NCBI GenBank assembly: GCA_033065855.1
Contig: JAVXUO010000519.1
Span: 124,001 to 188,000 of the forward strand
Origin: Escallonia rubra
Taxonomy: Eukaryota; Streptophyta; Magnoliopsida; Escalloniales; Escalloniaceae
Direction: 5' to 3'
Length of the DNA: 64,000 nucleotides
A program made the position numbers and the translations under genes. The notes below the pieces were generated by a model, which saw only the letters and a list, made by a program, of their open reading frames with translations, had not been told where the DNA came from and did not search any database. Position 1 is the first letter of the stretch. Every line of letters starts with the position of its first letter. This document shows, in pieces, positions 18,607-62,608 of the stretch.

Positions 18607-18615
18607 CATTCACAT

Positions 18616-20403
18616 TTTTTTTAGGATAAAGAGAACTGCATTTCATAAAAGTTAGTACAAAGTTGGAGTGAGAATATTTACAGCTGAGAAAACATAAACA
18701 AAATATCTCAGACACAGAGATGTAGACCCCATCCGTCTAGTCTACTGTGGCACATGATTATTGCTATAAGTTGCATAAACAAAAGACTAGGAGAACTACA
18801 ACACTTTCTTAAAACATCTTCCAGATGGACAAACACAGTCACTGGCCAAAAAGATGTTGTTCTGCCACCTGTGCAAGGGGAGAGATGAGACAAGAAAGAG
18901 CGGCAGTCCTGGAAGAGCAGCTACAATTGTGAAACAGACATATCGTCTGATAGATATCAAAATAGATGGGCTTCATGCGGACATGAGGCTCCTCATTCTC
19001 TGTCATCTGAGATCGAAAAGAGACAGAGTTAGAAAAAAGACTAACATGTATGTAATCATTCTATAAGGCCCATTGACAAGAATAGTAAGGATAACACTTC
19101 CGCCTCCTGAGCAGATGTAGATAGAAAGGAGGTTAGGTTCCAATTGATAATTTGATCATCCGTTGTGGAAGCAATCATGATTAGAGTTGTGCTTCTGAAA
19201 GATGGCTTGAAAAGAGATTGAAAGTATATGTTCGTGGTGGTAGGTGGACTATGAGTAGGATCTGAATGGTTTTCCATCCCATATGGAGGTCCAAAGCCAC
19301 GAATGTGCTGCTCATAAGTGGAAGTTGGTGGAGGCAAAGATCTGCATATTGTACTACGAAGCAATCGAACACAGTTATTGGTGAGAATGCTGGCTTGTCT
19401 TAGGATCTGGAGAGGACCTTTATTGATGGGGCGGAAAATTCTCTCGTTACGGTATAGCCATATGTACCAAAGAATATTGAAAAAGAGGAGATGGGAATAG
19501 CTGTTGCGTGTTGAAGACGGGTGAGAGGGTTTTATCCATGCGATCAACCACTCCTTAAAAGAGGGAATCGGTAAAGTTGTCAGGATACCAAGGTCACTAC
19601 CAAACCAAATTGTACGAAGACTTAGGCATGAGTAAAATAAATGTGTGGAGGTTTCAATATCCTGATGACAGAGATGGCAAGTAACATCCAGCTAGATCCC
19701 TTTATGTCGAAGATAGCTTAATTGAGGAAGACGATCCCAGAGAAGTTGCCAAATAAAGAAACGCACTTTAGGAGGGACCTGCAGCTTCAAAATTTGTTGC
19801 CAAGTAGAAGTCAAAGATCTCATGGTGGGCATTGTTGGGTGTTGATTGACATAAAGAGAGGAATAGACAGCGCGAAAACTATAAATTCCCGTGGAAGTTT
19901 CAGCCCAAAGTGGTTTATCATGACATCCGGCTTGCGAAACAAAAGTTTCTAATATGGTTTCAGCAGTGTGGTCAGGGAACAGATTTCGGAGGAGAGCATC
20001 ATTCCATTTGCCATCCGTGAGATAATTTAACACTAGTTCATCAGAAGGATACTCGTGTTGGAATTGTTGTAAATAAATAGGATCCATTGTTGCTAGCCAA
20101 TGATCTTGCCAGATCCTAATCTATTTGCCATCACCCAAACTCCATTGCAACCTTGGTAGAAGAAGATCTCGGCCTTTTAAAATGCCCTTCCATCCCTATG
20201 AGGTGTTAGAGTTTGCCCGGAGAGATAAAAAATGTCTTTTCGAGCAGTATTTTTGTTTAAAGAAGGAAGCAAAGAGGCTTGACGGCTCATTGAGGATACG
20301 CCATGAAAGTTTGGCGAGTAAAGCTATGTTGAACAGGTTGGAGTTTCAAAATCCAAGGCCACCTAAACTGGTAGGAGCACAAAGAGAAGCCCAGTTGATC
20401 TAG
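18616..20403 (-). pseudogene. 5'-truncated LINE ORF2 tail
   Basis: Read on the minus strand from 20403, the translation matches the end of plant LINE ORF2: TSLGGLGF, NIALLAKLSWRIL, LGDGK, then the reverse-transcriptase zinc-binding block (VPPKVRFFIWQLLWDRLP, then CHLCHQDIETSTHLFYSC) and an RNase H-like tail. In-frame stops occur (for example after the NSNTS and LGDGK stretches). The expected poly(A) tail appears as a T-run at 18616-18623. The insertion separates two parts of the copia-derived repeat that are contiguous in the right copy. Confidence 0.82.
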
Positions 20404-20584
20404 TGAATCCTTCTGTTTTCACATTATGTTAGTTGAGTACAAGCACCTATATATAGGTGGAGTCAATAATTCAAATCTATAGATAACTCAACATAACAAT
20501 ATTATATCCAAAGATAACTAATCACTTCTTATTTAAAAGTTAAACTTAACAATTCTAGATTAATCTAATATTATCTAACACTTA
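20404..20584. other. Short AT-rich spacer
   Basis: Sequence between the truncated LINE and the next part of the left repeat copy. It contains a TGTTAG..CTAACA-bounded stretch (about 20428-20579) that could be a small LTR, without a matching TSD. Confidence 0.35.
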
Positions 20585-21982
20585 GTAATACCCCTAAGTA
20601 GATAAGAAATGCAGGTCTCTGCCCTTTGGGTTCTGCTTAATGTCTATAAACATCCATTGTTAACATAAAAATTGAGGTTTTGCCTAGCCGATTGAGACTA
20701 CCGCCGTAATCATTGGGTCATTATCTACTAAAACTTTAACAATTTCACTCACCATAGATTTGATCTTTTTGAACCACGATTGCTAGATCCCTCTAAAGTT
20801 GAGGGCATGTAAGCAATCTTTTCCGTACACCGAATATCTTTTTTGGCCTTTCGATTGAGTTATCTATCAAGTTATCTTACGCTTGAAAATTTCTGGTCGG
20901 CCAAGCTATCACATAAGGTGATCAAGCCTAAAAGGATCGGGAAAATACCAACCGCCCTTTCTACTAGGTAGGTAATCGAGTCCTCTTGCCCTCGGCAAAG
21001 TTACTTTTCCTCTTTATATCAGGTTAGGTATTCAGTCCTTTTATGCTCGAAAAGAATGATTCAGGCCTTTCTATCAGGTAAGGTGATCGACTCCTTTTGC
21101 ACTTGGCAAAATTTCAGGTGGCCTTTATATCGGATTAGGTGATCGAGCCCTTTTGCGCTTCGCAAAATTACGTTGGGCCTTTTTATCGGATAGGTTAGAA
21201 AGTACTTTTGCACTTTGAAAAACCTTCGGTTGGCCTTTCGAGCAGGTTAGGTAGTCGAGTCATTTTGCATTCTGGTAAACTTTTTTGTCGCCCTTTCTAC
21301 CAGGTTAGGTGATCGAGTCACTGTTACAGTCTTCTCTTTGTCCAATCACTCTAGTTTGTGTTCCGATCTCCATGTCTCTGTCTAGTTTTCCCAATCTCTG
21401 TATTAGTCCTTCTAAAAAAAATGGGCATATCCTTTGTTGCATTATGCGTTTCTCGAAATCTTATGCGTGATTAGAGTCGATTATAGGTGCACAGAGATAA
21501 TAGTCCACCTTGGTGCTTGAGTTTTTACTCTTCTTAATAAACTAAGTTCTGTGCTTTACAATACCTGAAAGTTCTTTGTGTTGTCTTTCCATTGACATTT
21601 CATAAGCCTAACTCTATTAAGTATTGACTGAAACAGTTAGAGTTTATGAAACTTGTGATCAACATGATACATCTTTAATATTCTGGGTATCACATGTTAT
21701 ACTTGTTATTTGTAAGTGACTCTGCAAAAAGACGTGAAAGCAGATTTTCATAGCTTTACTACGATATAAGTTCGCTCAGAACGGACTATGGATGATAGAA
21801 AACCAAACCTTTAACGTTGACATCTATAGAGTAGTCACTGGACTTCTAGGAGTGTTAACCGGTACGAGAGAGGGCGCTGGCCGGTAATGACTTCCGAGAT
21901 GTGTGATATAGTCTGAGAACCCTTGCGTCGACAATTTTGAGGATTTTATATGCATTTGAGGGTCTAGAGTTGGTCTCCAAGC
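20585..21982 (+). repeat. Left copy of copia-derived dispersed repeat, second part
   Basis: Aligns in the same orientation with 62800-64000. It includes a tandem array at about 20930-21330: roughly seven units of about 60 bp built on 'caggttaggtgatcgagtc' followed by 'ttttgca' and 'ggcctttc'. The copy was interrupted at 21988 by solo LTR 2 and resumes after 37768. Confidence 0.8.
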
Positions 21983-24612
21983 ACTTCTGTAACATCCCGG
22001 AATTTCCGGAATGTTAACACTCGATCCATCAATCACTAAATCATAAAATCCTCAACTCAAACAAAATAAATACTACCAATCTGTCAGAGCAACTAATCCA
22101 TCGACTTAATTATAGTTGAAACATCAAGTCCAAACTAACAAATCTAAATAACAATAATGACCCACGCAGGGGTTCTAAAGACTAAGACTGAAACTTAAAT
22201 TCTCTTTCGCTCAGCTCAGATCTAGTCCACTCCCAAAACGATCTATTGTTTGTTATAACCTACGGAAAAGAAGTCAAAGGGGGGTGAGCTTTGGAGAACC
22301 CAGTAAGGTCGCACAAAGATTTAAAAATAAGAAAATGATACGGACGATTTGACATTTAAACCAATACAAAATTTTGAAGGCGGAGAAACATAGCGATTCA
22401 AACAATCTTTTTATATACAATCAAACGATAAATCTGAAAAGGGTTTTCAAAGAAAACCACAGCATTTCAATATAAACAAAGGGATGAGTATCAACTCAGT
22501 TCCCTTAAATCGATAACCATTTCTAAACACTTAAGATGCAATAAACTTAAATAGGAAACGTTGAACATGAGCAGTACAGAAGCAAAGCCACCCCGGCAGT
22601 GCTCGATACACTTACATATGCATATGTACGCTGACTAGTCCATCTAGGTACTAGTTAAACCCATCCAACAGACCATCCTTGTAACACCAACAATACAGAC
22701 CATCCTTATGGCTCCCAAGTTACTAACTCATGTCAACATTGAGAAGTAATAAATAGAATTTAAAAATGCTTTAGGATGAGCAATCAATAAACATATCAAA
22801 TGAACAATGGATTTCAAGATGAGATGAAACAGAATTCCAAACAATCGCTATAAGGCTTAATTTAGGGTTTCATGGGCAATTTAAAAACATTTTTTTTATA
22901 TCAATCAATAAAAAAATCAACATTCGATCTAGTTTGTAAAACTGTTGTTATAAGCATTTGAAAACAGAATAATGAAAATAGGGTTCGGATAGAATCCCTT
23001 ACCTCGGTCCAAGCTAAGCGATGCTATCAATCCTCGATCAAAATTTTCTGAATAAACATAGATTAGCAATTTATTTGTTAGAACATAATTTATGTCAAAA
23101 TATGCTATAAACCCTAATATCAACTACCCACTGCGTACCCACTCTCTCCGAAATCGCGCACTCAAAACGGTTCCCGCACCCGGCCAGCCTAACCGAAAAT
23201 CCTACACACTCCTTAACGTATACAGACACTCTAAAATTTATAATAATTTACATTAAAAACTTTTATAGCTTAAAGCATTAATAAAAGTCAAAATATGCAT
23301 TCTCCAAATTTTTGAATATTTCAAAATAAAATAATTTCTTTAAATACAATAAAATCTCATAAATTGCCAAAAATACTTCCAGCTGCAAACTAAGTCCCAT
23401 AATTTTATATCAACTTTTAAATATGTATAAAAATTATAAAAATATAAATCAGAAATTAAAAGGCATTAAAACTATTTTTCAAATATTCGTTTTGCTAAAA
23501 CTAATGCGATATGGAAACCATAGCAAATAAACTCCAAAAATTATCAAATTTATACTGAGTCTTTATTATACTATATAAACACTACTATAATTTTCCCCAT
23601 AACATTTTCATGGTTTAAAGACTCCAAAAGAATTTTCCAAATCTGAAATTATAGAAAATACTATAAATTCATACGATCTCAGAAAATTATAAACTTTTGC
23701 CAAAAATTCTAATATAGTCTATCGTACTATACTGTAAAGTTTCACGCAATTATAATCACTGTACACTATCTCATGGATGCATCGTACTTAACGCTAATTC
23801 GATAACCACTAATTACGTATTCAAAACCCACTTCCTTTCTTCTCCCTAACACCTCTGTCCAAACCCAGAAGTTACTGTTCACGCAGCTTCATTTTCACTT
23901 CCTTCTCCTTTATTCGCCAATTTCTATCTCCTTTCCAAGCTACTGCCTTCACTCCCTTTTCCTTTCCAAACCATAACCTTCTTAACACCCAAGTCAGTGA
24001 GGCAGTGGCTTGTTATCCAATACACATACTCAATGAACCAGCACAAAGTCCCTCCTTCTGCCTGCCTAGACCCACGACTCCATGAACCCACTACACACCT
24101 GCTACACACTACACACCCCACCTTGTACACACACATTCACGCACACAGCAACACACTTTCACGCACACCCATTCAAACACACCACATACAATTCCAACTA
24201 ACCACTTTCTCTCCTAATTTTTCTGAACCCATTTCACACACTAAATACCCACAATGCACTCTTATAACCCACATATCTATCTATAATACACACCATCCTA
24301 CACAACCTATAGTCGATGTTCCTTTCCCATTTCATCTCACACTCCAAGCATCACATACCCACTACCTTGCGACAGGAAGCCACACGGCATTCGCCGGCAC
24401 CCGCTGCGCTGCTACTCCCTCTTCTTCTTCATCGTACCACATCAGCACAATCACTCAGCCGCACCTCCATCCGTTTCTATGCCATGGCAGTCATGTGACC
24501 CCCTCTTCTTCTTCCTCATTACTCTCCATAACCTATGTACACAGCTCACTCATAAATGCATATATATATATAGGGGCCCGATCCACACCCACCGGTGGAG
24601 AAAAAAATTTTC

Positions 24613-24890
24613 TCCACCCAACCGCTTGTAATACAAGCGGTTGGGTGCTGTGTCATTTTCTCGTGGGCCCCACCACAAAAAGCCCAACCGCATGTAAGAG
24701 AAGCGGTTGGGCATGATAATTTATTTGACATGGGCCCACCATAAAAAACCACTCCACCCAACCGCTTCTCTTATACGCGGTTGGGATAAATTTTTTTTTG
24801 CCCAACCGCTTCTCTTAGAAGCGGTTGGTAACCCCTTTTTTTTTAACAATTTTTTAAAAAACCAACCGCATATAAAAGAAGCGGTTGGTG
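24613..24890. repeat. Hairpin array at left tip of MULE C
   Basis: Five hairpins, each of the form CCAACCGC + about 10-12 bp + GCGGTTGG, spaced about 45-75 bp apart (starting near 24618, 24683, 24758, 24801 and 24861). Loops and inner stem bases vary (TTGTAATACAA, ATGTAAGAGAA and others) while the outer 8 bp are constant. The constant outer stem suggests selection or recent copying. Confidence 0.85.
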
Positions 24891-24969
24891 GCTTTTATTT
24901 TGGGTGGCTCCCACACAAAAATTTTCAAATTTTTTGATTGGCTGACATAAAAAAAAAAAAAATTTCGAG

Positions 24970-25431
24970 CCGAGGCAGCCACGTGGCCTCATCCGCGCCT
25001 GCCACGTGGCCCAACCGCGTGAAGGGGCGCCGGTTGGTGCCACGTGGCCTCCTCAGCGTCTGCCACGTGGCCCAACCGCGTGAAGGGACGCCGGTTGTTG
25101 CCGCGTGGCCTACACGCGCGCTGCCACGTGGCCACCACGCGCCTGCCACGTGGCCAAACGCGGGAAGGTGCGCTGTTGGTACGATGGCGGTGCCACGTGG
25201 CCTCCTCCGCGCCTGCCACGTGGCCCAACCGCGTGAAGGGACGCCGGTTGTTGCCGCGTGGCCTCCACGCGCCTGCCACGTGGCCACCACGCGCCTGCCA
25301 CGTGGCCAAACGCGGGAAGGTGCGCCTGTTGGTACGATGGCGGTGCCACGTGGCCTCCCCCGCTCCTGCCACGTGGCCCAACCGCGTGAAGGGGCCCCGC
25401 GGGTTGCCCTCTCCTTCTGCCACGTGGCGCC
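24970..25431. promoter_or_regulatory. GCCACGTGGC / CACGCGC array, left arm
   Basis: I count 13 exact GCCACGTGGC palindromes (G-box core CACGTG) in about 460 bp, plus two GCCGCGTGGC variants. Between them are four exact CACGCGC heptamers (25113-25119, 25136-25142, 25266-25272, 25288-25294). CACGCGC is the established binding site of Arabidopsis FHY3/FAR1, the family to which the element's transposase belongs. The array lies 160-620 bp upstream of the TATA box. Likely roles are transposase binding and promoter control; this is inference. Long open frames across it on both strands are by-products of GC-rich repetition. Confidence 0.75.
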
Positions 25432-25593
25432 CCTCCCCCCCCGCCTGATGGCTCCCCGTGACTCTGTCCTTCCCTCCCCGTGACTGTCCTTTTGCAGAGT
25501 CTTTTGTTTCGCGCCAAATTTTTTTTTCTGCCACCACTCACGGGTTTTTTCTGCAGACACCCTCTTTTTTCTTCTCTCTTCCTTTTTCTTCTC

Positions 25594-25757
25594 TATTTAT
25601 AATCCCCTCCCCCCAACCATTCTTCTCCACATTTCTGCTCTGCTCCGCACTTTTTCTCCACAAACCAAAAAATTTTAGCGCTAGAAGAAGATCGGTGAAT
25701 AATCGCTAGAAGATCGGTAGATTTTTCTTCAAATACATCAAGTCACAACAAGTAAGT
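25594..25757 (+). promoter_or_regulatory. Core promoter, 5'UTR exon and donor of the transposase gene
   Basis: A TATA box (TATTTATAAT, 25594-25603) is followed by a pyrimidine-rich leader with transcription start expected near 25625-25635. The leader ends at 25751 in a canonical donor, ACAACAA|GTAAGT (GT at 25752). The next good acceptor is in the T-run just before the transposase start (TTTTTTAG ending 28072, or TTTCAG ending 28079), giving a 5'UTR intron of about 2.3 kb. All of this except the acceptor lies in the inverted repeat. Confidence 0.65.
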
Positions 25758-25849
25758 ATTTTGAATTTCCTTATACATCAAGTCAGCGTATTACACTTAG
25801 CGTATTACATTTATAGCGATTCAAAATAGCGTATTACATTACATTTATA

Positions 25850-26809
25850 GACAGCTTTTTCACGGATTTATAAAAAATAGCTAGAGCGAGATTTTGCCAA
25901 AGTACAAAAAAGAGACCCTAGTTATTCTGAAAGCATCTGTATCAGGTAAAAATTCCAGATTTTTCCAAGCACTGTAGAGGGGCTAACTGATACGGGGAAC
26001 CGTGTACCTTCGCAGTCTAATTTAAAATACCAAGCTAGCGCGATTTCGCGCGAAACTTTTACAAGAACCCTAGGATGTTGGGAAGTTCCATTCCCCAGGA
26101 TTTCGCGCCATTCCGGAGCCGTTTGCTATTTTTTTGCCCGAACGGCCCTTTCAGCGCTCGCCCTTTAATTAGACAGCTTTTTCACGGATTTATAAAAAAT
26201 AGCTAGAGCAAGATTTTGCCAAAGTACAAAAAAGAGACCCTAGTTATTCTGAAAGCATCTGTATCAGGTAAAAATTTCAGATTTTTCCAAGCACTGTAGA
26301 GGGGCTAACTGCTATGGGGAACCGTGTACCTTCGCAGTCTAATTTAAAATACCAAGCTAGCGCGATTTCGCGCGAAACTTTTACGAGAACCCTAGGATGT
26401 TGGGAAGTTCCATTCCCCAGGATTTCGCGCCATTCCGGAGCCGTTTGCTATTTTTTTGCCCGAACGGCCCTTTCAGCGCTCGTCCTTTAATTAGACAGCT
26501 TTTTCACGGATTTATAAAAAATCGCTAGAGCGTGATTTGGCCAAAGTGCAAAACAGGGACCCTAGTTATTCTGAAAGGATCTGTATCAGGTAAAAATTTC
26601 AGATTTTTCCAAGCACTGTAGAGGGGCTAACTGCTACGGGGAACCGTGTACCTTCGCAGTCTAATTTAAAATACCAAGCTAGCGCGATTTCGCGCGAAAC
26701 TTTTACGAGAACCCTAGGATTTTGGGAAGTTCCATTCCCCAGGATTTCGCGCCATTCCGGAGCCGTTTGCTATTTTTTTGCCCGAACGGCCCTTTCAGCG
26801 CTCGCCCCG
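25850..26809. repeat. Three 322-bp tandem units, left arm
   Basis: Units begin at about 25850, 26172 and 26494 with 'gacagctttttcacgg'. They contain the phrases 'ctgtatcaggtaaaaa', 'gggaaccgtgtacc' and 'cgcgatttcgcgcgaaa'. They lie inside the predicted 5'UTR intron of the transposase gene. Confidence 0.88.
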
Positions 26810-26924
26810 GACACCGGTTCGCGATTTTTGCGCGAAAAATCCGTAAAGTACTTTTTAGGCCAATGATGAACTCACGAAGCGTAAAGTAGAATTTCGAGGC
26901 ACCTTTGAGATTTTTCCTGATGCC

Positions 26925-27970
26925 AGGGGCATTTCGGTAATTTGCCACCCCGCGAGGGGTGTTTCGGTGTTTTTCCCGCGCCAAGTTTTTAATTACACAG
27001 TTTTAGTCCAGGAATGTAATCACAGAAACTGAAATGTTGTTTTGAAGCTGGTTCGGGGGCGTTGGGGTGATAGTGAACCCCCGGGGGCATTTCGGTAATT
27101 TGCCGCTCATCGGTGACTATTTTGCTAGGAAGGATCCAGCCTCATGATACATGCCTTAAAATAACTTTTAGTTCGGCAAAGGGTGTCAGACACCCGAAAA
27201 CTTTTATTGCCCCGGGTGAATTCAGGAACTTGTGACGCACCGGCGATGACTGCCAGGGGGTATTTTGCACAAGTAGCGGGTGTTTTGGTAACTTTCCCCC
27301 TTTAAAATTTTTCCTGATATATTGGGTATATAATTGACGTAATACATTTAAAAACTTGACTTCAAAGCGGTTTTGAGGTCTTGGGGGTGTAGGGGCCGTC
27401 GGGGGGTATATTGCTATATAACCACGTTGGCGCTACATTCAGTGAGAACTGGCGTAATTAACCGTTCGGAGTGGTGGGAAGTGAGGATTTGTTTTAATAC
27501 ATTTAAATAATGACTATTGCTAATGTGTTGGTAAGCTAGGTTAAACATCCAGATATGTTCGTTACCCCCTGGGGCATTTCGGTAATTTGCCGCTCATCGG
27601 GGGCTATTTTGTTAGGAAGGATCCAGCTTAAAGGGCCATACCTTAAAATAACTTTTAGTTCAGCAAAGGGTGTCAGACACCCGAAAACTTATTTTGTCCC
27701 GGATGAATTCAGGAAGCTTAAAATGCCGTTTCAAAGCACTCGGAACGATTTTTTGATGCCAGGGGGCATTTTTCGTTAATTCGCAGCCCCGAGGGGGGTA
27801 TTTTTGTAATTTTACAGCGTTAAGTTTTTTAAAGGACTTCTTAGTCCAGAAATGTAAGCAAAGCACCTAAAAGGTTGTTTTCAAGCTGATTTGGGACGTT
27901 AGGGTGATAATGAACTCCCCGGGGGCATTTTGCTAATTTGCCCCCGTCGGGGGCTATTTTGATAATTTTA
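26925..27970. repeat. Dispersed 'GGGGCATTTCGGTAATTTGCC'-type motifs
   Basis: The phrase 'ggcatttcggtaatttgcc' occurs near 26930, 27083 and 27573, and a variant occurs near 27920. Longer blocks around it (27075-27240 and 27565-27720) are copies of each other, including 'gtgtcagacacccgaaaac'. These are internal duplications at the inner end of the arm. Confidence 0.7.
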
Positions 27971-28087
27971 CATTATACAAATCAGCTTAAGCAATTACGT
28001 TTAAATAATTTTTATTCTTCTTTTATTTAATTCTATGACTTGTTGATAATCGTATTGGTTTTTATTTTTTAGATTTCAGTGCTCGAT

Positions 28088-30379
28088 ATGGATGCAACTG
28101 GAGGGAATATTTTTTGTGAAGGTTCTGATCCACCTTACTTGGGTCAAATTTTCCAAACACTGGACGAAGTCGAAGCATACTACAGAGCATATTCGAAATC
28201 GATGGGTTTCGGTATTAGAACTAAGACGACTAGAAAACGGGTGAATACCGATCAAATTGGTGCAAGGTTATTTGAGTGTCATAGAGGAGCACCGTATGTA
28301 CCCCCCGTCGTTCAGATCAGTGACGAAGGGACAACAAGACAAAGAAAACGGGACACATTTCCGGGTACCGGGTGCAAAGCCCATGTGTATGCAGTACACC
28401 GGAAAAATGAAAACCATTGGGTTTTGACGGCTGTGGAGTTGAGCCATAATCATCAGTTTTGCACCCCTAGTATGATTGGTCAAATTCATCAACACCGAGA
28501 AATAAGCGCGGCACACAGACAACTGATTTCAACAATGGCCGACGCTAAAATATCACCTTCTAAGATGATGGGGGTTTTCTCAAGCCAGGCTGGGGGGATT
28601 GACAAGTTGACTTTCAACGACGTTGACCTTCGAAATCAACTCCGTGCTCAGAGGAGAGAGTCTTTCGGTCAGATCGATTCTCAAGCTACACTTGATATCT
28701 TCAGGTGCCTTCAGAGTGAGAATTCTGGATTTTTCTACAGTCTCCAAGTGGATGATGAGGGCCGCATTAGTACTATATTTTGGGTGGACCCCTGTTCTAG
28801 AGCTGCTTACCAAAATTTTGGGGATGTTGTGACGTTTGACACCACATACCGCACCAATAAGTACTCTATGCCTTTTGCTCCGTTCACCGGGGTGAACCAC
28901 CACTATCAGTCAATCTCATTTGGCTTTGCCCTGCTTAGGGATGAGACGGAGGAGTCATTTACGTGGTTATTTGAAACGTGGCTTCAAGCAATGTATCATA
29001 TTCCTCCAAAGACCATCATCACCGACCAAGATCTGGCAATGAAAAATGCAATCGCTAAGGTCCTTCCAGATACTCACCATGGCCTGTGCACGTGGCACAT
29101 AAGCAACAAATATCCCGAACGGCTTCACAATGAATATGCAAAGCATCCGGAATTCAAGACTGACTTTAATACATGCGTGAAGAAATCGTTGACGGTAGAC
29201 GTGTTCGAGGAGAGGTGGGCCGCGTTAATGGATGACTACGGTTTGCACAATCATGGATGGTTAAAATCGTTGTATGAGATCAAGACACAGTGGGTCGGTG
29301 CGTACACCAAGAAGTTTTTTGCAGCCGGAATGACTACGACATCGAGAAGCGAAGCTATGAATTCATTCTTCGATGGGTACGTAGGCCAGTCTTCAAGTAT
29401 AGCGGAGTTTGTACTAGAGATGCAGAAAGCCCTTGAGAGGCAATTGTACCGTGAGAGAGAAGCCGACGCGGCTACAGTTTACAAAGAAAGATCCATACTA
29501 CTTTGTTCACCATTGGAGGCTCATGCGGCTCAAGTCTATACGAAGGAAATGTTTCGACAGTTTCAAGAGGAACTATTAAAGTCGAATCAATATGGCATGA
29601 CAAAGTTGCACGAGTTTTCCACCAGAGATCTCAAGGTTTATGCTTTGACAAATGTGACGAATTATGCCAATCCGTGCTCTTCGTCGGCTCCGAGGAACAG
29701 AAGACATTTTACCGTAGCTAAATGTATGGACACCGGGTTGGTAAATTGCAACTGTCAACTCTTTGAGCATAAAGGTATACTTTGTCGACATGCGTTGAGG
29801 GTTTTGAGCGCCAAGAATGCAACTCAAATCCCTCCACAGTATATCTTGGAACGGTGGACGAAGGAAGCCAATAGAGTCCACGGTCACATTCCTTACGTGC
29901 CCAGTGTTTCAGTTGATTTCAGGGAATCTGAGGCGCTGCGATATAATCATCTTTGTAACATCATGCACGGTTTATCGATGGATGCAGCGTCAACATTTGA
30001 TGGGTACACTTATCAAGTTGAAGCAGCCGCACGGGATCATGCTAAGCATGCACAGTTTAGGATGGCATTACCAGAAAGCCGGGACCCTCGACCGACTCCA
30101 GCCGGTAGATTCAATCGAGCCAAACAGCCAGTCATTGACGGCACTAGCATGCAAGGTGAGGAGGACGACATTTTTGATCCCATTATTTCTCAAACAAAAG
30201 GGCGAAAACGAGAAATCCGCATGAAGAATCCGATTGAAAAAGCAACGGGTCAAAAAAAATTGCGAAAGTGTGCGTTGTGTAATAAGATGACTGATCATGA
30301 CAAGAGAAACCATTACAAAGTGTTAGGTATGGAACCTGGAAGTATGGTCGAGGAGGACGATGAGGAGGAAGAGTGTTAG
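28088..30379 (+). CDS. MULE transposase, FAR1/MURA type
   Basis: DDE transposase expected to cut and move MULE C in the nucleus. The first ATG, at 28088, gives 763 residues; the numbers here use that start. Domains in order: FAR1-type DNA-binding region (about 20-125, with conserved Cys and HNH-like Cys/His at its end), MULE transposase core with D251 in FDTTY, D313 in ITDQ and a candidate E422 in SRSE, and a SWIM zinc finger C554-x-C556-x9-C566-x-H568. Near the C-terminus are a small C-x2-C-x5-H-x4-H knuckle (728-742) and an acidic tail. No stop or frameshift interrupts it. It lies inside long inverted repeats and faces the PMD-Ulp1 gene, so it is a transposon gene rather than a domesticated FAR1/FRS host factor. 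Transcription probably starts at the arm promoter near 25594 with a 5'UTR intron. Confidence 0.95.
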   Translation: MDATGGNIFCEGSDPPYLGQIFQTLDEVEAYYRAYSKSMGFGIRTKTTRKRVNTDQIGARLFECHRGAPYVPPVVQISDEGTTRQRKRDTFPGTGCKAHVYAVHRKNENHWVLTAVELSHNHQFCTPSMIGQIHQHREISAAHRQLISTMADAKISPSKMMGVFSSQAGGIDKLTFNDVDLRNQLRAQRRESFGQIDSQATLDIFRCLQSENSGFFYSLQVDDEGRISTIFWVDPCSRAAYQNFGDVVTFDTTYRTNKYSMPFAPFTGVNHHYQSISFGFALLRDETEESFTWLFETWLQAMYHIPPKTIITDQDLAMKNAIAKVLPDTHHGLCTWHISNKYPERLHNEYAKHPEFKTDFNTCVKKSLTVDVFEERWAALMDDYGLHNHGWLKSLYEIKTQWVGAYTKKFFAAGMTTTSRSEAMNSFFDGYVGQSSSIAEFVLEMQKALERQLYREREADAATVYKERSILLCSPLEAHAAQVYTKEMFRQFQEELLKSNQYGMTKLHEFSTRDLKVYALTNVTNYANPCSSSAPRNRRHFTVAKCMDTGLVNCNCQLFEHKGILCRHALRVLSAKNATQIPPQYILERWTKEANRVHGHIPYVPSVSVDFRESEALRYNHLCNIMHGLSMDAASTFDGYTYQVEAAARDHAKHAQFRMALPESRDPRPTPAGRFNRAKQPVIDGTSMQGEEDDIFDPIISQTKGRKREIRMKNPIEKATGQKKLRKCALCNKMTDHDKRNHYKVLGMEPGSMVEEDDEEEEC

Positions 30380-30489
30380 GGTTAATGTTTCAGTTGTATA
30401 ACGAATAACTTTTCTAATGTTTAAATTTGTGATTTGATTTGTTGAATCTTTAATTTGTGATTTGGTTTGTGGATTATTGAAATTTTTTG

Positions 30490-30960
30490 AATGGCATATT
30501 CGCGCACGCTTTAGCGCCCAATTCATAGGTTCCTGAAAAATCTTTTAATTTGTTTTGTTCATTGCACTTTAGTCACGCTTTAGTGGCCACTTCATAACTT
30601 TCGAAAAATCTTATAAATTTTTTTGTCGCGATTTTTCCGCTCATTGCACATGAGGCGCGCTAGTTATCCCATTCTTATGTATTTCGGCGAAAAACGAGAC
30701 ACGTTATTTTTTCGGTTTTCCTATGAAGGGCCTATTCGGGCACACTTTAGGGGCCAATTCATAACGCTCGAAAAATCTTGTAAATTTTTTTCTCACTTTT
30801 TTTCCGCTCATTGCACATGAGGCGCGCTAATTAGCCCATTCTTATGTATTTCGGCGAACAACGAGACACGTTATTTTTTCGAATGCGTCATATGAAATGT
30901 ATATTCGCGCACATTTTAGCGCCAAATTCATAGCATGCGAAAATTTATGTACATTTCTTT
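30490..30960. repeat. Tandem repeats between the convergent MULE C genes
   Basis: About three degenerate units of roughly 170 bp. 'ccgctcattgcacatgaggcgcgcta'-like phrases begin at 30637 and 30804, and 'cgcacnctttagcgcc'-like phrases recur near 30500, 30740 and 30910. They fill the 610-bp gap between the two stop codons and probably supply 3' ends for both genes. Confidence 0.75.
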
Positions 30961-30990
30961 TTGGTACAGTTTGTCGTAACATCACAGCAG

Positions 30991-33843
30991 CTAGCCACAC
31001 ACGTCAGGATAATGGTAATGAAGTCGTCTGGCTTCATTCTTTTTCAGTTCCCAGGCTATCCTATACCTAAACGTCAAGGCATCCTTCCGGGTCCACGAGG
31101 AGTGTTTGAGCACTTCCGATCGAGCAATGTAGTCCATGTACTTGAGGACGTAAATCCCGCAATCGTTACCGTTATATTGCTTTGGTCGGTCCTTTATCAT
31201 CACGACCGTCCAAGGCTCCCCCTGTGGCCGTCCGCACGCTATCGAGAGGACAGTAGTCTGCATCCAACAATAAAATCGCGAATCAAGCCTATGAAACAAC
31301 AACAATATACTATGAGCCAAGGTCAAAAAATTAAAACTAACCACTAAAGTGATGTAGTCGTCGTACATCTGTGCCAGCAGCTGTCCGGGCTCGTCCTCCC
31401 TTAGGCTATCGTATATGTGAACCGTTCTGAACGCTGGATGGAGAACTAATAGGAACCAGTGGTGCCCATGAAGACAAGGTATCATGATAAGGTTCGCATC
31501 AGCAGCGGGACATTGATACTCTGCGTTCATCATGGATAACATGTTTCGACCTGGTTTCCAATTACTCATGTTGCCCCCTTGCTTCCATTGATGGAATTCC
31601 CGGATCGCTAATTCCACAAAATGAGTGGGATACATGTTAAGCTTACAGTATTCAGAACGGTTAAATTTATGCTCTCTAATCCGGAGCAGATCTATATAAG
31701 CGTTGATGACAAAATTTGAGAGATCTGTCTCCGGCGCCAACAGTCTGATATCCGAATGACCTAGTCCTGTCCCAAGAGGGAAGTCTGTTGCACTGACAGG
31801 CTCATGCCCGAAGTAGTGCCGGTCGATCCAAGCCATCTTCTCCGGCCTCAATGGCTTCGTCGCTTGTCCTTTGTTCGACCGGAAACTTGGGCGCGAGGCA
31901 TGGTTTCCTACTTGGGGAACCTGACTCTGGCACAGAGAGTCGTATGCGTAAGGAGGAGGGCGACTATACGGCTCCCACACCTGACTCTGGGGCTGATAGT
32001 CGTACGCGTCAGGAGGAGGGCGACTAGACGGCTCCCACACCTGACTGGAAGTTCCGTAGTCGTACGCGTCAGGAGGAGGGCGACTAGACGGCTCCCACAC
32101 CTGACTGGAAGTTCCGTAGTCGTACGCGTCAGGAGGAGGGCGACTAGACGGCTCCCCTTGGTAACCCCGGTACGCAAGACTAAAGTTTTGAACATCAGTC
32201 TTGTACCTCTCAATGGACCTCTTAATATTGTCAGGAGCCTGCGCGACAAACCAGTCAAACGACTCCAGCTGCTTGAAAACGTCAGTGGCCTGGTCAACCT
32301 AACAAACATGCATAGAAAATATGGCAAATCATTTCATTTGATGGTCGATACGCGTGTGCAAATAAATTATCAAACAACACTAGCATGACTTACAATGGCC
32401 AATGCCCAGAACTGGTCATAGACCTCACGGGGCGCATACGATTTGGTCCTCACTGGGGCAGGGCGAGTCACCCGCGTGCGCGTCACCCTGAGAAACCACT
32501 GTAAGTAGTCCTCAGTACTGGTGCCGTCGTGCTTCATCGATACAAGGCTGTCATACGTTTCCTGCCAGGTATTCCATTGTTGCACCTCGTCACCCAACAC
32601 AGTCAAGGCATTAACCACCTCGAAGTTCAGTGCTCGACCACCCCTGTATGGCCGCATGTCTACAGCGGGTTTCGGAATCCCTTGTGGACAGCTAGCTTGC
32701 TTCATAACTCGATCGGGCATCTGAAACTCACATTCTTCGAAGTGAATCAGCGGCACCCGAACCAAACCTGCAAGCACGTACGACACCGGAAGTTGCCACC
32801 ACAACTCATCCAACAGATGCATCACCTTGTCATATGGCTGCCACGCCACCTGGTATGCATCCAGCATCTCTAGTTCCCCCCGATAGAACTGTAGATGGTT
32901 GTGAGGGTCTACCCGTCTCCTCCTCCGGTTGGTCGGAGGCCCCCAGGCCCACACCCTAGGCCACGTCTCATCGGAATCTACCAACGGTTGTGGACGACCC
33001 GTGGGTAGCCTCTCGTAAGACCAAACCTGTGAACGCAAACATTATATGGAATTAGTAATGAATCCCGAATATATTGACTAAGGATCCGGATAAGAAAATA
33101 AATGCTCATACCTGTAATAGAGTCAGGCAGGCGGCAATGGACTTGGCACCGAATCTCGTAGCCTTATGCAGTGCTCGATATAGGTGCGCAAGGACAGCTG
33201 AACCCCACGAGTACGAGTATACCTCGTCAAGATCCTCCAATAACACCATATACCTCGGATGCACCGTGTTTTTCGAATGCGTCGGAAGTAATATGGCTCC
33301 AATAATGTACAGAAGGTATGCCCTCGTATACGTCACGAAATCCTGACGAGTGTATTCATCCGGTAGCACGCCATACTGCTCTCTCAGCCATTTAAGCTTG
33401 ACGCCGTTTGTTGTAAGAGCTGCCCTTGGAATTCCCGGAAAATAATGCCTAGCCATATTCGCTACGGATGCAGACGGCACGCTCAGAGTAACGGGTCTGC
33501 CGTGACATGGGATTCCAAGTATATATCCGACGTCCTCTAACGTAACAGTCATTTCACCAAACCGGAAATGAAATGAGTTCGTCTCGCTCCTCCATCGTTC
33601 AACTAGAGCGGATATAAGGCAATCGTCGTGGCGATACCATTTCCCGCAATCGGTGAACAGGCTTAAATTTTGACCGTGTATAAGGGCTTTTTGTTCCTCG
33701 TTTAGTACCCACTCTTCAATTCCTCTTGTGGTTTGAATTGTTTCCAAAACACCCCTATCGACACCGTCAAATACGTGCCTCGCGACGTGGTCATCGTCAT
33801 CGTATAGGATTGATGTATCATGAGGTCCGGGGTTGAAATCCAT
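30991..33843 (-). CDS. PMD-Ulp1 fusion protein (plant mobile domain + C48 peptidase)
   Basis: Four exons: 33843-33112, 33026-32394, 32298-31342, 31257-30991. Introns are 85, 95 and 84 bp, all GT..AG and phase 0, giving 862 residues. Exons 1-2 encode a plant mobile domain (about 60-430): LISALVERWRSET, TLEDVGYILGIP, and LLQ|VWSYERLP rebuilt across intron 1, matching the family's LLQVWAWERFP. Residues 503-581 are four 20-residue repeats (core EPSSRPPPDAYDY). The C-terminus is an Ulp1-type SUMO protease with H735 (HHWFLLVL), D752 (IYDSL), Q801 and C807 (NGNDCG), so catalysis is plausible. It occupies the mudrB position of the element. PMD and Ulp1-like genes are each known from MULEs; its job in transposition is unknown. 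Confidence 0.9.
31925..32165 (-). repeat. 60-bp coding tandem repeats in the PMD-Ulp1 gene
   Basis: Four consecutive 60-bp units, exactly in register with codons, encode the Pro/Tyr-rich 20-residue repeat between the PMD and the protease. The two units furthest upstream in the gene are nearly identical; the one nearest the protease is the most diverged. Confidence 0.93.
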
Positions 33844-34654
33844 ATCTATAAGAACAAAATATAATCGTAAACCAACATATCAGGTTATAATATTTACATT
33901 CCAAACCAACATATCTGGATCTTTAACCTAGCTTACCAACACATTAGCAATAGTCATTATTTAAATGTATTAAAACAAATCCTCACTTCCCACCACTCCG
34001 AACGGTTAATTACGCCAGTTCTCACTGAATGTAGCGCCAACGTGGTTATATAGCAATATACCCCCCGACGGCCCCTACACCCCCAAGACCTCAAAACCGC
34101 TTTGAAGTCAAGTTTTTAAATGTATTACGTCAATTATATACCCAATATATCAGGAAAAATTTTAAAGGGGGAAAGTTACCAAAACACCCGCTACTTGTGC
34201 AAAATACCCCCTGGCAGTCATCGCCGGTGCGTCACAAGTTCCTGAATTCACCCGGGGCAATAAAAGTTTTCGGGTGTCTGACACCCTTTGCCGAACTAAA
34301 AGTTATTTTAAGGCATGTATCATGAGGCTGGATCCTTCCTAGCAAAATAGTCACCGATGAGCGGCAAATTACCGAAATGCCCCCGGGGGTTCACTGTGAC
34401 CCCAACGCCCCCGAACCAGCTTCAAAACAACATTTCAGGTTCTGTGATTACATTCCTGGACTAAAACTGTGTAATTAAAAACTTGGCGCGGGAAAATTAC
34501 CGAAACACCCCTCGCGGGGTGGCAAATTACCGAAATGCCCCTGGCATCAGGAAAATTCTCAAAGGTGCCTCGAAATGCTACTTTACGCTTCGTGAGTTCA
34601 TCATTGGCCTAAAAAGTACGTTACGGATTTTTCGCGCAAAAATCGCGAACCGGT

Positions 34655-35624
34655 GTCCGGGGCGAGCGCTGAAAGGGCCGTTCGGGCAAAAAAATAGCAA
34701 ACGGCTCCAGAATGGCGCGAAATCCTGGGGAATGGAACTTCCCAACATCCTAGGGTTCTCGTAAAAATTTCGCGCGAAATACCGCTAGCTTGGTATTTTA
34801 AATTAGACTGCGAAGGTACACGGTTCCCCGTAGCAGTTAGCCCCTCTACAGTGCTTGGAAAAATCTGAAATTTTTACCTGATACAGATCCTTTCAGAATA
34901 ACTAGGGTCCCTGTTTTGCACTTTGGCCAAATCACGCTCTAGCTATTTTTTATAAATCCGTGAAAAAGCTGTCTAATTAAAGGGCGAGCGCTGAAAGGGC
35001 CGTTCGGGCAAAAAAATAGTAAACGGCTCCGGAATGGCGCGAAATCCTGGGGAATGGAACTTCCCAACATCCTAGGGTTGTCGTAAAAGTTTCGCGCGAA
35101 ATCGCGCTAGCTTGGTATTTTAAATTAGACTGCGAAGGTACACGGTTCCCCGTAGCAGGGTAGCAGTTAGCCCCTCTACAGTGCTTGGAAAAATCTGAAA
35201 TTTTTACCTGATATAGATCCTTTCAGAATAACTAGGGTCCCTGTTTTGCACTTTGGCCAAATCACGCTCTAGCTATTTTTTATAAATCCGTGAAAAAGCT
35301 GTCTAATTAAAGGGCGAGCGCTGAAAGGGCCGTTCGGGCAAAAAAATAGCAAACGGCTCCGGAATGGCGCGAAATCCTGGGGAATGGAACTTCCCAACAT
35401 CCTAGGGTTCTCGTAAAAGTTTCGCGCGAAATCGCGCTAGCTTGGTATTTTAAATTAGACTGCGAAGGTACACGGTTCCCCGTAGCAGTTAGCCCCTCTA
35501 CAGTGCTTGGAAAAATCTGAAATTTTTACCTGATACAGATCCTTTCAGAATAACTAGGGTCTCGTTTTTGTACTTTGGCAAAATCTCGCTCTAGCTATTT
35601 TTTATAAATCCGTGAAAAAGCTGT
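34655..35624. repeat. Three ~322-bp tandem units, right arm
   Basis: Mirror of the left units, with unit ends near 34973, 35303 and 35624. The middle unit carries a small duplication (about 9 bp at 35155-35165). Confidence 0.88.
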
Positions 35625-35733
35625 CTATAAATGTAATGTAATACGCTATTTTGAATCGCTATAAATGTAATACGCTAAGTGTAATACGCTGATTTGTATA
35701 AACCTAACATTGAATTATAAGGAAATTCAAAAT

Positions 35734-35898
35734 ACTTACTTGTTGTGACTTGATGTATTTGAAGAAAAATCTACCGATCTTCTAGCGATTATCCACCGAT
35801 CTTCTTCTAGCGCTAAAATTTTTTGGTTTGTGGAGAAAAAGTGCGGAGCAGAGCAGAAATGTGGAGAAGAATGGTCGGGGGGGAGGGGATTATAAATA
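35734..35898 (-). promoter_or_regulatory. Core promoter, 5'UTR exon and donor of the PMD-Ulp1 gene
   Basis: Mirror of the left promoter: TATTTATAAT on the minus strand (35889-35898), a leader to 35740, and donor ACAACAA|GTAAGT (GT at 35739-35738). The acceptor TTCTTATAG ends at 33846, two bases before the ATG at 33843, giving a 5'UTR intron of about 1.9 kb. Confidence 0.65.
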
Positions 35899-36028
35899 GA
35901 GAAGAAAAAGGAAGAGAGAAGAGAAAAGAGGGTCTCTGCAGAAAAAACCCGTGAGCGGTGGCAGAAAAAAAAGACTCTGCAAAAGGACAGTCACGGGGAG
36001 GGAAGGACAGAGTCACGGGGAGCATCAG

Positions 36029-36408
36029 GCGCGTGGGGGAGAGGGGCGCCACGTGGCAGAAGGAGAGGCAACCCGCGGGGCCCCTTCATGCGGTTGGGCC
36101 ACGTGGCAGGCGCGGAGGAGGCCACGTGGCACCGCCATCGTACCAACCGGCGCACCTTCCCGCGTTGGGCCACGTGGCAGGCGCGTGGAGGCCACGTGGC
36201 AGGCGCGTGGAGGCCACGCGGCAGCAACCGGCGTCCCTTCACGCGGTTGGGCCACGTGGCAGGCGCGGAGGAGGCCACGTGGCACCAACCGGCGTCCCTT
36301 CACGCGGTTGGGCCACGTGGCAGGCGCGGAGGAGGCCACGTGGCACCAACCGGCGCCCCCTCACGCGGTTGGGCCACGTGGCAGGCGGGGGAGGAGGCCA
36401 CGTGGCAG
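36029..36408. promoter_or_regulatory. GCCACGTGGC / CACGCGC array, right arm
   Basis: Mirror array with 11 exact GCCACGTGGC palindromes and three CACGCGC sites on the minus strand (36029-36035, 36181-36187, 36203-36209). It lies upstream of the TATA box of the PMD-Ulp1 gene. Confidence 0.75.
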
Positions 36409-36489
36409 CCTTGGCTCGAAATTTTTTTTTTTTTTTTTTGTCAGCCAATGAAAATTTTTGTGTGGGAGCCACAAAAAAATAAAAAATCC

Positions 36490-36785
36490 ACCAACCGCTT
36501 CTTTTATATGCGGTTGGTTTTTAAAAAAATTATTAAAAAAAGGGGCTTACCAACCGCTTCTCTTAGAAGCGGTTGGGCAAAAAAAAATTTGTCCAACCGC
36601 TTATAAGAGAAGCGGTTGGGTGGAGTGGTTTTTTGTGGTGGGCCCATGTCAAAAAAATAATCATGCCCAACCGCATGTAAGAGAAGCGGTTGGGCTCAAA
36701 AGAAAAAATGAGTGCTTTTGTGGTGGGGCCCACGAGAAAATGACACAGTACCCAACCGCTTGTATTACAAGCGGTTGGGTGGAGA
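36490..36785. repeat. Hairpin array at right tip of MULE C
   Basis: Mirror of the left-tip array: the same CCAACCGC..GCGGTTGG hairpins beginning near 36491, 36551, 36594, 36667 and 36753. Confidence 0.85.
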
Positions 36786-36820
36786 AAATTTTTTTCTCCA
36801 CCGGTGGGTGTGGATCGGGC

Positions 36821-36823
<3 letters not shown>

Positions 36824-36864
<41 letters not shown>
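36824..36864. repeat. (TA)n(TG)n microsatellite at the MULE insertion site
   Basis: A TA run followed by TG repeats immediately outside the right end. The left flank has a shorter TA run (24561-24572). It hides the exact target duplication. Confidence 0.9.
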
Positions 36865-36865
<1 letters not shown>

Positions 36866-37768
36866 GCTGTCTTGGCAGCCATGCCTTCACACTTGCACCT
36901 TACACGTATATTTGCACATACCCAAATCTCCCCACTCTCACACAACACCCATCAAAACCGTGAGCCCTCCCTTCTTGCTGTCGAAAACACACGCACACAT
37001 GCACCCCAACCTCACGTACACATATGCATATACGATACACACAAAACCCACGTAATACCCCTCATTCCTTCACCTGTACACACAAAATTCCCTGTAACAC
37101 CTAACATAAACGCAGCCCCAGTCCCTTCTCCTAGTTCTTGTCCAGTACATATATATTCCCCAATACCCATTTCACGGCAAGGTCTCTTCCCTTGCTCTAA
37201 AACCCACAAGATAGTCGTAGACACATATAACATCCCAGAGGTAATTGATTTTGGAGAGAAGGTAGAAATCTTACCTAAAGGTTTCGCTGGAAAAGTCTTC
37301 TGCCAAGCTTTCTTCGTCTCTCTCCCGTACTCTCCTCGTACTCTCCTCTACCGTCTTTCCAGATGGTTGAAATTTTAGGGTCGGCTGATCAATACTCTAT
37401 AATCTATATATAATAACCCTAGTTGGAATATAACCAAAAGCCCACCTTAATTTCCATTAACCGCTCAAATTTTCACCCAGAAACTTTTATTAAGGCGAAG
37501 AGGTCCAAAAATAATTATCTACAAACAGTTAATGCACTAGAAAATTATTAACGGGTGTTTTGCACTATCTCATGTCACAAATCGTCACTAATAATAAGCG
37601 CATCGATAAAAAATAAATTCACCGCCAAAAGTATACATAATGCTAAGTATTTTTTTAAAAAATAACATCGTTAAAAATTGCTAATTAAAATATCGATGCT
37701 TAAAAATATATTTCTCGGCTAAATTTTATTTTATTAATCCGTTAAAAATATCGGGGTGTTACAACTTC

Positions 37769-40670: not shown

Positions 40671-41374
40671 TGTTGAAAGATTTAGGCTTTGATTTATATT
40701 TTCTACAACAAAATATTAGCAATATCAAGATATTAAACGTAGCAAAATAATTGAAAGTAATTCTATATGAACTCTTGATAAAATTATGTAATCTAAATCA
40801 GTAAAAGGATATAAAATAGCTCGTCCTTGAGAGTCGTGACAGAGTCACTGTCCTAAAGACGTTATCGCCTCCCTACGTGCAGGTGTTGACGGCAGATAAT
40901 GTCTCCAAGATAAAACCCATTGACGCAGCTATGTCTCCTCCATGTGCACGTCCACAGGAAGACGGTATGAACCAGTCCACGATCACGTTGCCCAAGTATA
41001 AAATATGAAAATAGCTATAGAGGAAAAACATTGTGATAGTAAAGTATAAAACACTAAGTATGGAAGCATAGTAGCTTCTTTTCTTCTATGTCACACCCTA
41101 TGGCCTTATATACTTGGCCAATCAAAATCCATTTATTGGTTACATAAGTAAGATTAAAAGCCTTTGTAACTCATTGAATAATTATAACCATTCTCAATAA
41201 TGCCAAATAATAAGGTATATTATATACACCATAAACACATTTGAGTTAATAATATTCATTATTGCATTTGTAACTCCTTTCATAATTTACATGTAAGTAA
41301 ATACATAGAGCCATAAATTGCAATATAATAACAATGCTATAATGTACATTTTATTTTATTAAAATATTCCAACA
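40671..41374 (-). repeat. 3' LTR of the F-box-disrupting element
   Basis: 704 bp, paired with 45268-45971. It differs from its partner mostly in the first 55 bases. Confidence 0.93.
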
Positions 41375-41639
41375 ATCCCCCACTATTTTGATAAAATAAA
41401 ATGATAATTTAAAATACTTAAAAAGTAACTAATGAAATATTTATAAAGTCTCACAATTCCAAAAAATTTAAAGCATTTAAAACCATATCAATGAACATCA
41501 TGATAAACTCATAAACCTCCTCTCTCTCTTTTTTTTTTTTAATTTATTGAATATTTTTCTCTTTCGTAAAATAAAGCCATGGTTTATAAACTCATATAGT
41601 AATAAAATATATATAAAAAAAATATACATAAATAAGATG

Positions 41640-44761: not shown

Positions 44762-44885
44762 CAAAACTGAAGCTTTAGTCATCAGTTCCCTACAGAACTT
44801 TGCAGGATCAACATTCTTTCCGGCCCACCCAGAGACACCGTCAGCAACGGCAATAACTCCCCCATTGAAGGAGCTCACGAAGAAG
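44762..44885 (-). pseudogene. Captured fragment of a PP2C phosphatase (PBCP-like)
   Basis: Translation [20 protein letters not shown] followed by NVDP, RELMTKAS and VLV matches the N-terminal catalytic block of the plant PP2C clade that includes the photosystem II core phosphatase [16 protein letters not shown] carries the metal-binding Asp of PP2C. Only about 42 residues are present. The frame then runs through unrelated lysine/glutamate-rich codons to a stop at 44654. It is joined head-on to the L5 fragment in a different frame. Confidence 0.82.
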
Positions 44886-44906
44886 GATGAGTTCCAACAG
44901 ATACCT

Positions 44907-61430: not shown

Positions 61431-61448
61431 TTAATATTCTAGGTTCTA

Positions 61449-62599: not shown

Positions 62600-62608
62600 A
62601 ATATTCTA

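Follow-up and report, generated by a model that had tools for sequence, protein, structure and literature searches.

A recently multiplied Mutator-like element of Escallonia rubra carries a FAR1-type transposase gene opposite a PMD-Ulp1 fusion gene and is located in (TA)n microsatellites

The analyzed stretch of DNA, referred to as the window, comprises 64,000 nt of the Escallonia rubra contig JAVXUO010000519.1 (positions 124,001-188,000, forward strand) and harbors a Mutator-like element (MULE) of 12,251 bp at window positions 24573..36823. In this element a FAR1-type transposase gene stands opposite a second gene, in which a plant mobile domain (PMD) is joined to an Ulp1-type protease domain. 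The element belongs to a family that is young and multicopy and has recently multiplied in the host genome, and to judge from its sequence it is probably autonomous. With about even confidence we read it as an autonomous, recently active MULE targeted to TA microsatellites, whose PMD-Ulp1 protein would be a SUMO-type protease that counteracts silencing in the manner of VANC.

Both ends of the element consist of GGGGCCCGATCCACACCC and are directly followed on the outside by (TA)n, a run of 13 bp immediately left of 24573 and a microsatellite of 29 bp on the right side (36824..36852), within host sequence that is itself repeated. A self-BLAST of the window paired 24552-27563 with 36844-33904 in inverted orientation at 90.2% identity. 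The termini were set at 24573 and 36823, because the paired sequence beyond these points is the (TA)n flank. The left arm accordingly extends over 24573..27563 (+ strand), with other copies ending at the same point, and the right arm over 33904..36823 (- strand). With about 3 kb each, the arms are terminal inverted repeats (TIRs) as found in MULEs. Between them the transposase open reading frame (ORF) and the PMD-Ulp1 gene lie tail to tail, and the region between their stop codons (30380..30990) contains a 167-bp tandem repeat at 30574-30881, the copy number of which differs among elements. The stop-to-stop distance, measurable in 24 of 30 copies, amounts to 445-1114 bp and varies mostly in steps of 167 bp. 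This repeat could serve as a two-way terminator or as an additional motif array.

The transposase is encoded by a single-exon ORF of 763 aa (28088..30379, + strand), in which Pfam identifies a FAR1 DNA-binding domain (E 4.8e-13), the MULE transposase domain PF10551 (E 6.4e-33) and a SWIM domain. Counted by hand, its D-D-E residues are spaced by 62 and 109 positions, which is close to Jittery, as the catalytic residues D337, D399 and E509 given for JITA correspond to spacings of 62 and 110 (PMC9569675). The FAR1 domain and the JITA-like spacing together point to a transposase of the Jittery/FAR1 type. Maize MuDR has two convergent genes between its TIRs. The view of the initial annotation that the layout copies MuDR is an analogy only: the MuDR-type DBD_Tnp_Mut domain (PF03108) was absent among the Pfam matches of this transposase with E values up to 1.

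The PMD-Ulp1 gene is located on the - strand and is divided by GT-AG introns that were predicted from the sequence. Exon 1 (33112..33843) and exon 2 (32394..33026) encode the first and second half of the PMD, respectively. Exon 3, which extends from 31342 (or 31345) to 32298, encodes a linker with 60-bp/20-aa tandem repeats and the N-terminal part of the Ulp1 domain with the active-site His and Asp, and exon 4 (30991..31257) encodes the C-terminal part with the active-site Gln and Cys. The resulting single protein of 861/862 aa carries matches to both PMD (E 1.2e-68) and Peptidase_C48 (E 8.6e-16). Its Ulp1 domain aligns to the human SENP2 structure 1tgz (E 3.1e-8) with His, Asp, Gln and Cys all in place, residues which we take to form the active site of SENP2-type proteases. 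This His-Asp-Gln-Cys set, characteristic of C48 proteases, is complete in 29 of 30 fetched copies, and none of the 30, the window included, has lost Asp, Gln or Cys. The sole PDB match of the PMD part, a lysozyme chain (E 1.4e-5), was set aside as implausible.

The abundance of the element was assessed in the host genome, which was searched as 566 Mb in 3222 contigs. A 24-base terminal pattern allowing at most one mismatch gave 226 matches genome-wide (110 + 116), and the reversed control gave none. The 100 listed matches include 27 convergent pairs within 20 kb, 20 of them at least 10 kb apart and seven closer together, with each pair assumed to represent one element and with derivatives possessing other ends escaping the count. 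Among the best candidates, 59 transposases were scored, the window included; all are full length or nearly so and 97-100% identical, and 51 contain no stop codon. The 30 PMD-Ulp1 copies, to which the window's own gene belongs (locus L009), were chosen as the best protein matches and are therefore biased towards good copies. In this sample the splice sites are covered and the exon frames are kept in every copy, and 27 copies show no stop codon in the compared part (the last 420 nt of exon 1 and exons 2-4). Exon 3 measures 897, 957, 1017 or 1077 nt, so the linker changes in whole 60-bp units only. The end of a transposase gene was seen tail to tail with 24 of these copies, and none was present in the stretch fetched for the other six. 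Copy counts may be inflated, since contigs C2699 and C2505 share the same insertion and flank (loci L002 and L003) and could be allelic or duplicate contigs. Ratios of nonsynonymous to synonymous substitution (dN/dS) within the family are 0.30-0.83 for the PMD and, where defined, 0.39-1.38 for the Ulp1 domain, values that are based on too few changes to be informative. The initial annotation had described an intact-looking 12.25-kb MULE with two open, spliceable genes arranged tail to tail, which agrees with the arms, the Pfam domains and the frames across copies. It had named single-copy presence with orthologous flanks, or broken frames, as grounds for doubt, and neither was encountered in this genome.

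Divergent relatives indicate for how long the two genes have been kept together. Apart from the window's subfamily (A), a subfamily B is represented by an element on contig C2367 that has the same genes and the same inner arm. A more distant family C was reached by a PMD search of the genome (contig C1503, about 60443-69950; locus L080, 1-9901, together with L082). It contains the same gene pair tail to tail and has (TA)n at both ends, and its TIRs are about 250 bp long. Compared with the window, its transposase, likewise of the FAR1 type, is 52.2% identical over 740 codons, its PMD about 46% (51.0% and 40.4% for the two exons) and its Ulp1 domain about 32% (27.6% and 43.3%). The proportion of differing sites is 0.75-0.85 at synonymous positions, i.e. 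saturated, and 0.31-0.53 at nonsynonymous positions, and the protease retains all four active-site residues (His, Asp, Gln, Cys). Because synonymous sites are saturated, nonsynonymous divergence is lower and the active site is retained, all three domains have been under long purifying selection, and most simply the gene pair would be an old, co-inherited unit. The initial annotation had also suggested a distinct autonomous lineage marked by giant arms. Autonomy remains probable, whereas the arms do not define the lineage, as family C has the same gene pair with short TIRs. In the PMD search, 43 listed matches share a score of 168.7 bits, compared with 168.9 bits for C1503 itself, and are probably copies of family C.

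It could be argued that the PMD-Ulp1 gene arose by transduplication from the host and travels as a passenger without function for the element. MULEs often capture pieces of host genes, and in grapevine several families of MULEs and of CACTA elements are described as having captured Ulp1 (PMC2528002). However, constraint over a divergence that has saturated synonymous sites, retention of the active-site residues in both families, intact splice sites throughout the 30 copies, and a promoter-like arm that mirrors the arm of the transposase all argue against a passenger. We consider this explanation highly improbable, and on splice-site retention and the constraint in family C it was rejected as the principal reading.

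Insertion of the element can be followed in its flanks. For the left flank (23600-24560), three relatives with 96-98% identity reach the insertion site, and all are empty there, their left and right flanks being joined by (TA)n runs of 14, 28 and 10 bp. The evidence consists of these three near relatives; two more distant ones, C2854 and C2772 (74-76% identity), also reach the site. The flank belongs to a repeat of about 3.5 kb resembling a long terminal repeat (LTR) element, 21988-37763 (TGTAACA...TGTTACA, with a 5-bp duplication ACTTC), which houses the MULE. This LTR-like repeat is missing from a tandem paralogous block on contig C1462, about 41 kb downstream. Since flank relatives exist without the MULE and the paralogous block lacks the repeat, the LTR-like repeat was inserted first and the MULE second. 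The neighboring tandem block (L039) was also considered as an empty site, but as it is without the whole LTR-like repeat, it dates the repeat rather than the MULE.

The preference of the family for (TA)n, a feature missed by the initial annotation, was evaluated in 37 terminal views (the right end of the window plus 36 loci, among them L001, which is the window's left end, and L002 and L003, whose flanks are identical to each other). The terminus adjoins a TA run of 8 bp or more in 29 of the 37 views and one of 16 bp or more in 23, compared with 0.25% of the remaining window. The eight views in which no TA run of at least 8 bp touches the element include both ends of the copy on C2908 and locus L067, at which a long TA run is present but interrupted. 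The copy on C2908, the one element outside TA for which two ends were seen, is bordered by a perfect 9-bp target duplication, TAGTTGCAT, a length within the range known for MULEs (9 bp, 8-11). In the window copy the target duplication is masked by the (TA)n flanks. (TA)n also adjoins the four readable termini of divergent subfamilies and both ends of family C. In addition, in a few places another TA-flanked element ends close by: a family C end lies across a short TA run in L047, a family C sequence (100% over 1314 bp) ends 186 bp from an A terminus in L004, and C-like ends (about 72%) occur near L008 and to the left of the B element. These junctions suggest that the elements are stacked beside other TA-flanked elements without being nested. 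On the basis of their location in (TA)n, the elements are grouped with the MULEs of the MuTAnT/SaTar type.

Alternatively, the association with (TA)n might reflect better survival of copies there, or growth of the microsatellite beside the element, without any choice of target. TA runs can expand after insertion, and for MuTAnT empty sites are reported to have on average fewer TA repeats than occupied ones (PMC4486113). In the window, the flanking runs of 13 and 29 bp together exceed the 14, 28 and 10 bp of the empty relatives, and eight of the 37 views are without contact to an 8-bp run. On the other hand, (TA)n was already present in all three empty sites, the frequency among the views far exceeds the 0.25% baseline, and the same flanks recur in divergent subfamilies and in family C, so that we regard a mere by-product as very unlikely.

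The arms share a common order of features, which from the tip inward comprises a conserved terminus, pairs of CCAACCGC, an array of GCCACGTGGC, a TATA context, a splice donor, 322-bp repeats and a splice acceptor. The left terminal module (24618..24888) and its right counterpart (36491..36778) each contain five inverted pairs of CCAACCGC, which are candidate binding sites of an element protein, and the two arms hold 28 copies of this motif in total. Further inward, the palindrome GCCACGTGGC (CACGTG), which we take to be a perfect G-box, forms an array of 13 copies in the left arm (24978..25428) and 11 in the right arm (36029..36406), interspersed with four and three copies of CACGCGC, respectively. 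The resulting 24 copies compare with 0.03 expected by chance in the whole window, and every one of the eight arms L001-L008 has 11-15 copies. A TATA-box context, TTCTCTATTTATAATCCCCTCCC, marks a putative core promoter at 25589..25611 (+ strand); the right arm has an identical context, and all eight A-family arm loci, of which L001 is the window itself, agree with it. A donor context CAA|GTAAGT, likewise identical in the eight A arm loci and recovered with one mismatch in five of six divergent-subfamily loci (it was not found in the sixth, L077), would open a first intron of the transposase gene at 25752..28072 (+ strand; donor at 25752, acceptor AG at 28071-28072). The corresponding first intron of the PMD-Ulp1 gene is predicted from the sequence at 33846..35739 (- strand). 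In both genes the acceptor site immediately precedes the start codon, and the introns harbor three units of the 322-bp tandem repeat in the left arm (25848..26807) and three matching units in the right arm (34660..35627). In the simplest reading, the arms are mirror images that supply either gene with its promoter, its leader exon and a giant first intron. The inverted repeats of about 3 kb noted in the initial annotation would correspond to this mirrored arrangement.

The motifs of the arms differ between subfamilies. The B element contains neither GCCACGTGGC nor CACGCGC and instead has an array of CCAATCGC, which is one base different from CCAACCGC, as well as its own TATA-like sequence, TCTATAAAATCC. 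On C774 and C1546 only two copies of CCAATCGC were found, so the array is unequally developed among subfamilies. Both ends of B and one end each of C774, C1546 and C1298 share the pattern GGGG...ACCGGTGG...CCACC[C/G]AAYCGC, and all of them adjoin (TA)n; the first motif copy, in the form [C/G]AAYCGC, occupies the same place in all five subfamily termini compared. This comparison was made without C1297, where the stretch stops at the contig end, and without C1848, C677 and C2267, in which no terminus was recognized. CACGCGC is described as the FHY3/FAR1 site (PMC13306707). As a general transposase site it was dropped, with seven copies in the window's element and none in the B element, and its copies may be by-products of the G-box array.

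Parts of this element have precedents. MuTAnT and AutoMuTAnT of Medicago truncatula are TA-targeting MULEs, and as described they share with the window family a Jittery-like transposase, GGGG terminal bases, (TA)n flanks, 9-bp duplications outside TA and foldback modules in the TIRs (PMC4486113); the kinship is one of description. AutoMuTAnT has a size of 4.9 kb and a single transposase ORF in one five-exon gene, whereas the window element measures 12.25 kb and has arms of about 3 kb and a single-exon transposase ORF (PMC4486113). The SaTar elements AgS-MULE and ArS-MULE of guayule and rice are (TA)n-targeted and stacked side by side without interrupting one another, and stacking was seen here too, but those reported are mostly non-autonomous elements of 0.4-1.7 kb and autonomous ones with defects, of which one measures 5.3 kb and has TIRs of 400 bp (PMC5907723). 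Neither Ulp1 nor PMD is mentioned in the text of PMC4486113 or in that of PMC5907723.

The two domains of the second gene are likewise known from other MULEs. In some Jittery-like families of grapevine, a Jittery-like transposase is described with a ULP coding sequence downstream, and Ulp1-bearing MULEs of melon are cited in the same account (PMC2528002). Two multicopy Jitvine families measure 11.9 and 14.4 kb, comparable to the window element; TIR and duplication lengths are not part of the corresponding Table 4, and PMD and microsatellites are not mentioned in the text (PMC2528002). A second gene on a MULE, in some cases with an Ulp1 domain, is also shared with KAONASHI/KI-MULE and VANDAL-VANC elements (PMC13317346, PMC5735166), and a review reports Ulp1 domains in some VANC genes (PMC13317346). 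VANC, an anti-silencing protein encoded by MULEs, is described to recognize short motifs that form tandem repeats and vary between related transposable elements (PMC5735166), and the arm motifs described here are equally short, arranged in tandem arrays and different between related families. Thus the window element resembles KI-MULE and VANC-KIU elements in having an Ulp1 (C48) domain in its second gene, but they are described as non-TIR MULEs (PMC13317346, PMC5735166) and differ in this from an element with TIRs of about 3 kb. PMD-carrying MULEs are described from grasses and Amborella, and their authors speculated about anti-silencing; there the PMD is fused to the transposase, whereas here it is fused to Ulp1 in a separate, opposite gene (PMC5418596). 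A PMD-Ulp1 fusion together with a FAR1-type transposase was not found among the literature matches listed, in a search that most subscription papers lay outside. TA-targeting, Ulp1-bearing and PMD-bearing MULEs have each been published, so that what may be new is the combination. The parts of the three-part combination singled out by the initial annotation are less unprecedented than implied (PMC2528002, PMC5418596).

If the element functions as we propose, each arm would drive one gene by means of its TATA box, leader exon and giant first intron. The transposase would recognize the terminal inverted pairs of CCAAYCGC, excise the element and integrate it in (TA)n, duplicating 9 bp of the target. 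PMD-Ulp1 would act as a nuclear SUMO-type protease directed to chromatin, where it would lift or prevent silencing of the element by the host, much as VANC proteins do for VANDAL MULEs. Its PMD end might dock on element DNA or on the MAIN/MAIL1 silencing machinery of the host, and its Ulp1 end might remove SUMO from a factor involved in silencing or transposition, with the subfamily-specific motif arrays as candidate address labels. A more specific version, which we put forward tentatively as rather unlikely, is that PMD-Ulp1 is a sequence-addressed de-SUMOylase that counteracts silencing in parallel to VANC and is built on the host's MAIN/MAIL1-type domain, that CCAACCGC plus G-box and CCAATCGC are the labels of subfamilies A and B, respectively, and that the burst of A followed the capture of a G-box array recruiting bZIP/bHLH activators.

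The main competing explanation for the second gene is a role as transposition helper similar to mudrB, in which PMD-Ulp1 would de-conjugate or mature the transposase or a repair or integration partner and silencing would be uninvolved. SUMO proteases act in DNA repair. A partner gene kept tail to tail over deep divergence is what any helper role would explain, and maize lines without mudrB are quoted to have given no new MuDR insertions (PMC9168764). Against a helper stand the single transposase ORF of the related TA-targeting AutoMuTAnT (PMC4486113) and the host PMD proteins MAIN and MAIL1, which are reported to act in silencing (PMC8616336, PMC5418596). A helper role is possible though doubtful, and counter-silencing is preferred because of the function of host PMD proteins, the precedent of VANC and the existence of a TA-targeting MULE with a single gene.

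Several observations weigh against the counter-silencing reading or against parts of it. The active-site His is lost in one of the 30 copies, and the residue beside it is altered in L014, as is the residue beside the Cys in L016. Kinship with VANC is sub-threshold, as exon 1 matches the VANC domain DUF1985 (PMC13317346, PMC5735166) with 29.4 bits (E 8.7e-7) at a Pfam cut-off of 35.1, and the similarity is weaker in two other PMD genes of the same genome (E 0.064 and 0.0049). The TATA context TTCTCTATTTATAATCCCCTCCC shows 5-9 mismatches in divergent subfamilies and is thus unconserved there. Between A and B, the transposase, the PMD and the Ulp1 domain have dN/dS values of 0.46, 0.45 and 0.72, respectively, which lie only moderately under 1 and are biased upward by the defects of the B copy, which is frameshifted in the transposase and has one stop each in the transposase and Ulp1 alignments. 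For the window transposase itself, we infer targeting of (TA)n from the flanks. Finally, gene bodies show an excess of CG transitions (26 of 391 columns, compared with 19 of 1761 A/T columns), which indicates that copies were methylated at some time; in the arms the excess is weaker and not significant (13 of 364 vs 29 of 1529, p 0.07). This spectrum covers 21 gene regions and seven arms, without L003, the duplicate of L002, and without the nine copies L013-L021 of another subfamily. Such methylation-type mutations would be expected if the element were a silenced relic that is intact in looks only, but scored transposases that are 97-100% identical, 51 of 59 of them open, and the existence of empty sites make a relic unlikely.

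The family bears on the reasons why transposons repeatedly acquire genes of the Ulp1 type and on the role of the plant mobile domain. Here PMD and Ulp1 are part of one protein that has been kept together with a FAR1-type transposase through saturating divergence, and near-identical copies may still move. It thus offers a natural system for asking whether transposons attack SUMO-dependent silencing. Moreover, FAR1-type transposases that still have their own element ends provide a comparison for the domesticated light regulators FHY3/FAR1.

Other PMD genes of this genome were also noted. On C1933 (L081, 3-5615) an 820-codon frame with MuDR-type transposase domains, PF03108 among them, lies ahead of a PMD gene of equal orientation, so that within a single genome the PMD has two different types of MULE transposase as partners. 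A cluster of four PMD matches at C922:1278226-1296817, all full length and open, has the best listed PMD scores and possibly represents the host's own MAIN-like genes. In the window itself, a tandem segmental duplication with about 88-90% identity involves 17119-21837 and 58334-64000, the latter continuing in L039, and different insertions interrupt each copy. Two direct repeats of 715 bp, 98.7% identical and 3.9 kb apart (40671-45982), possibly represent a young insertion with long terminal repeats.

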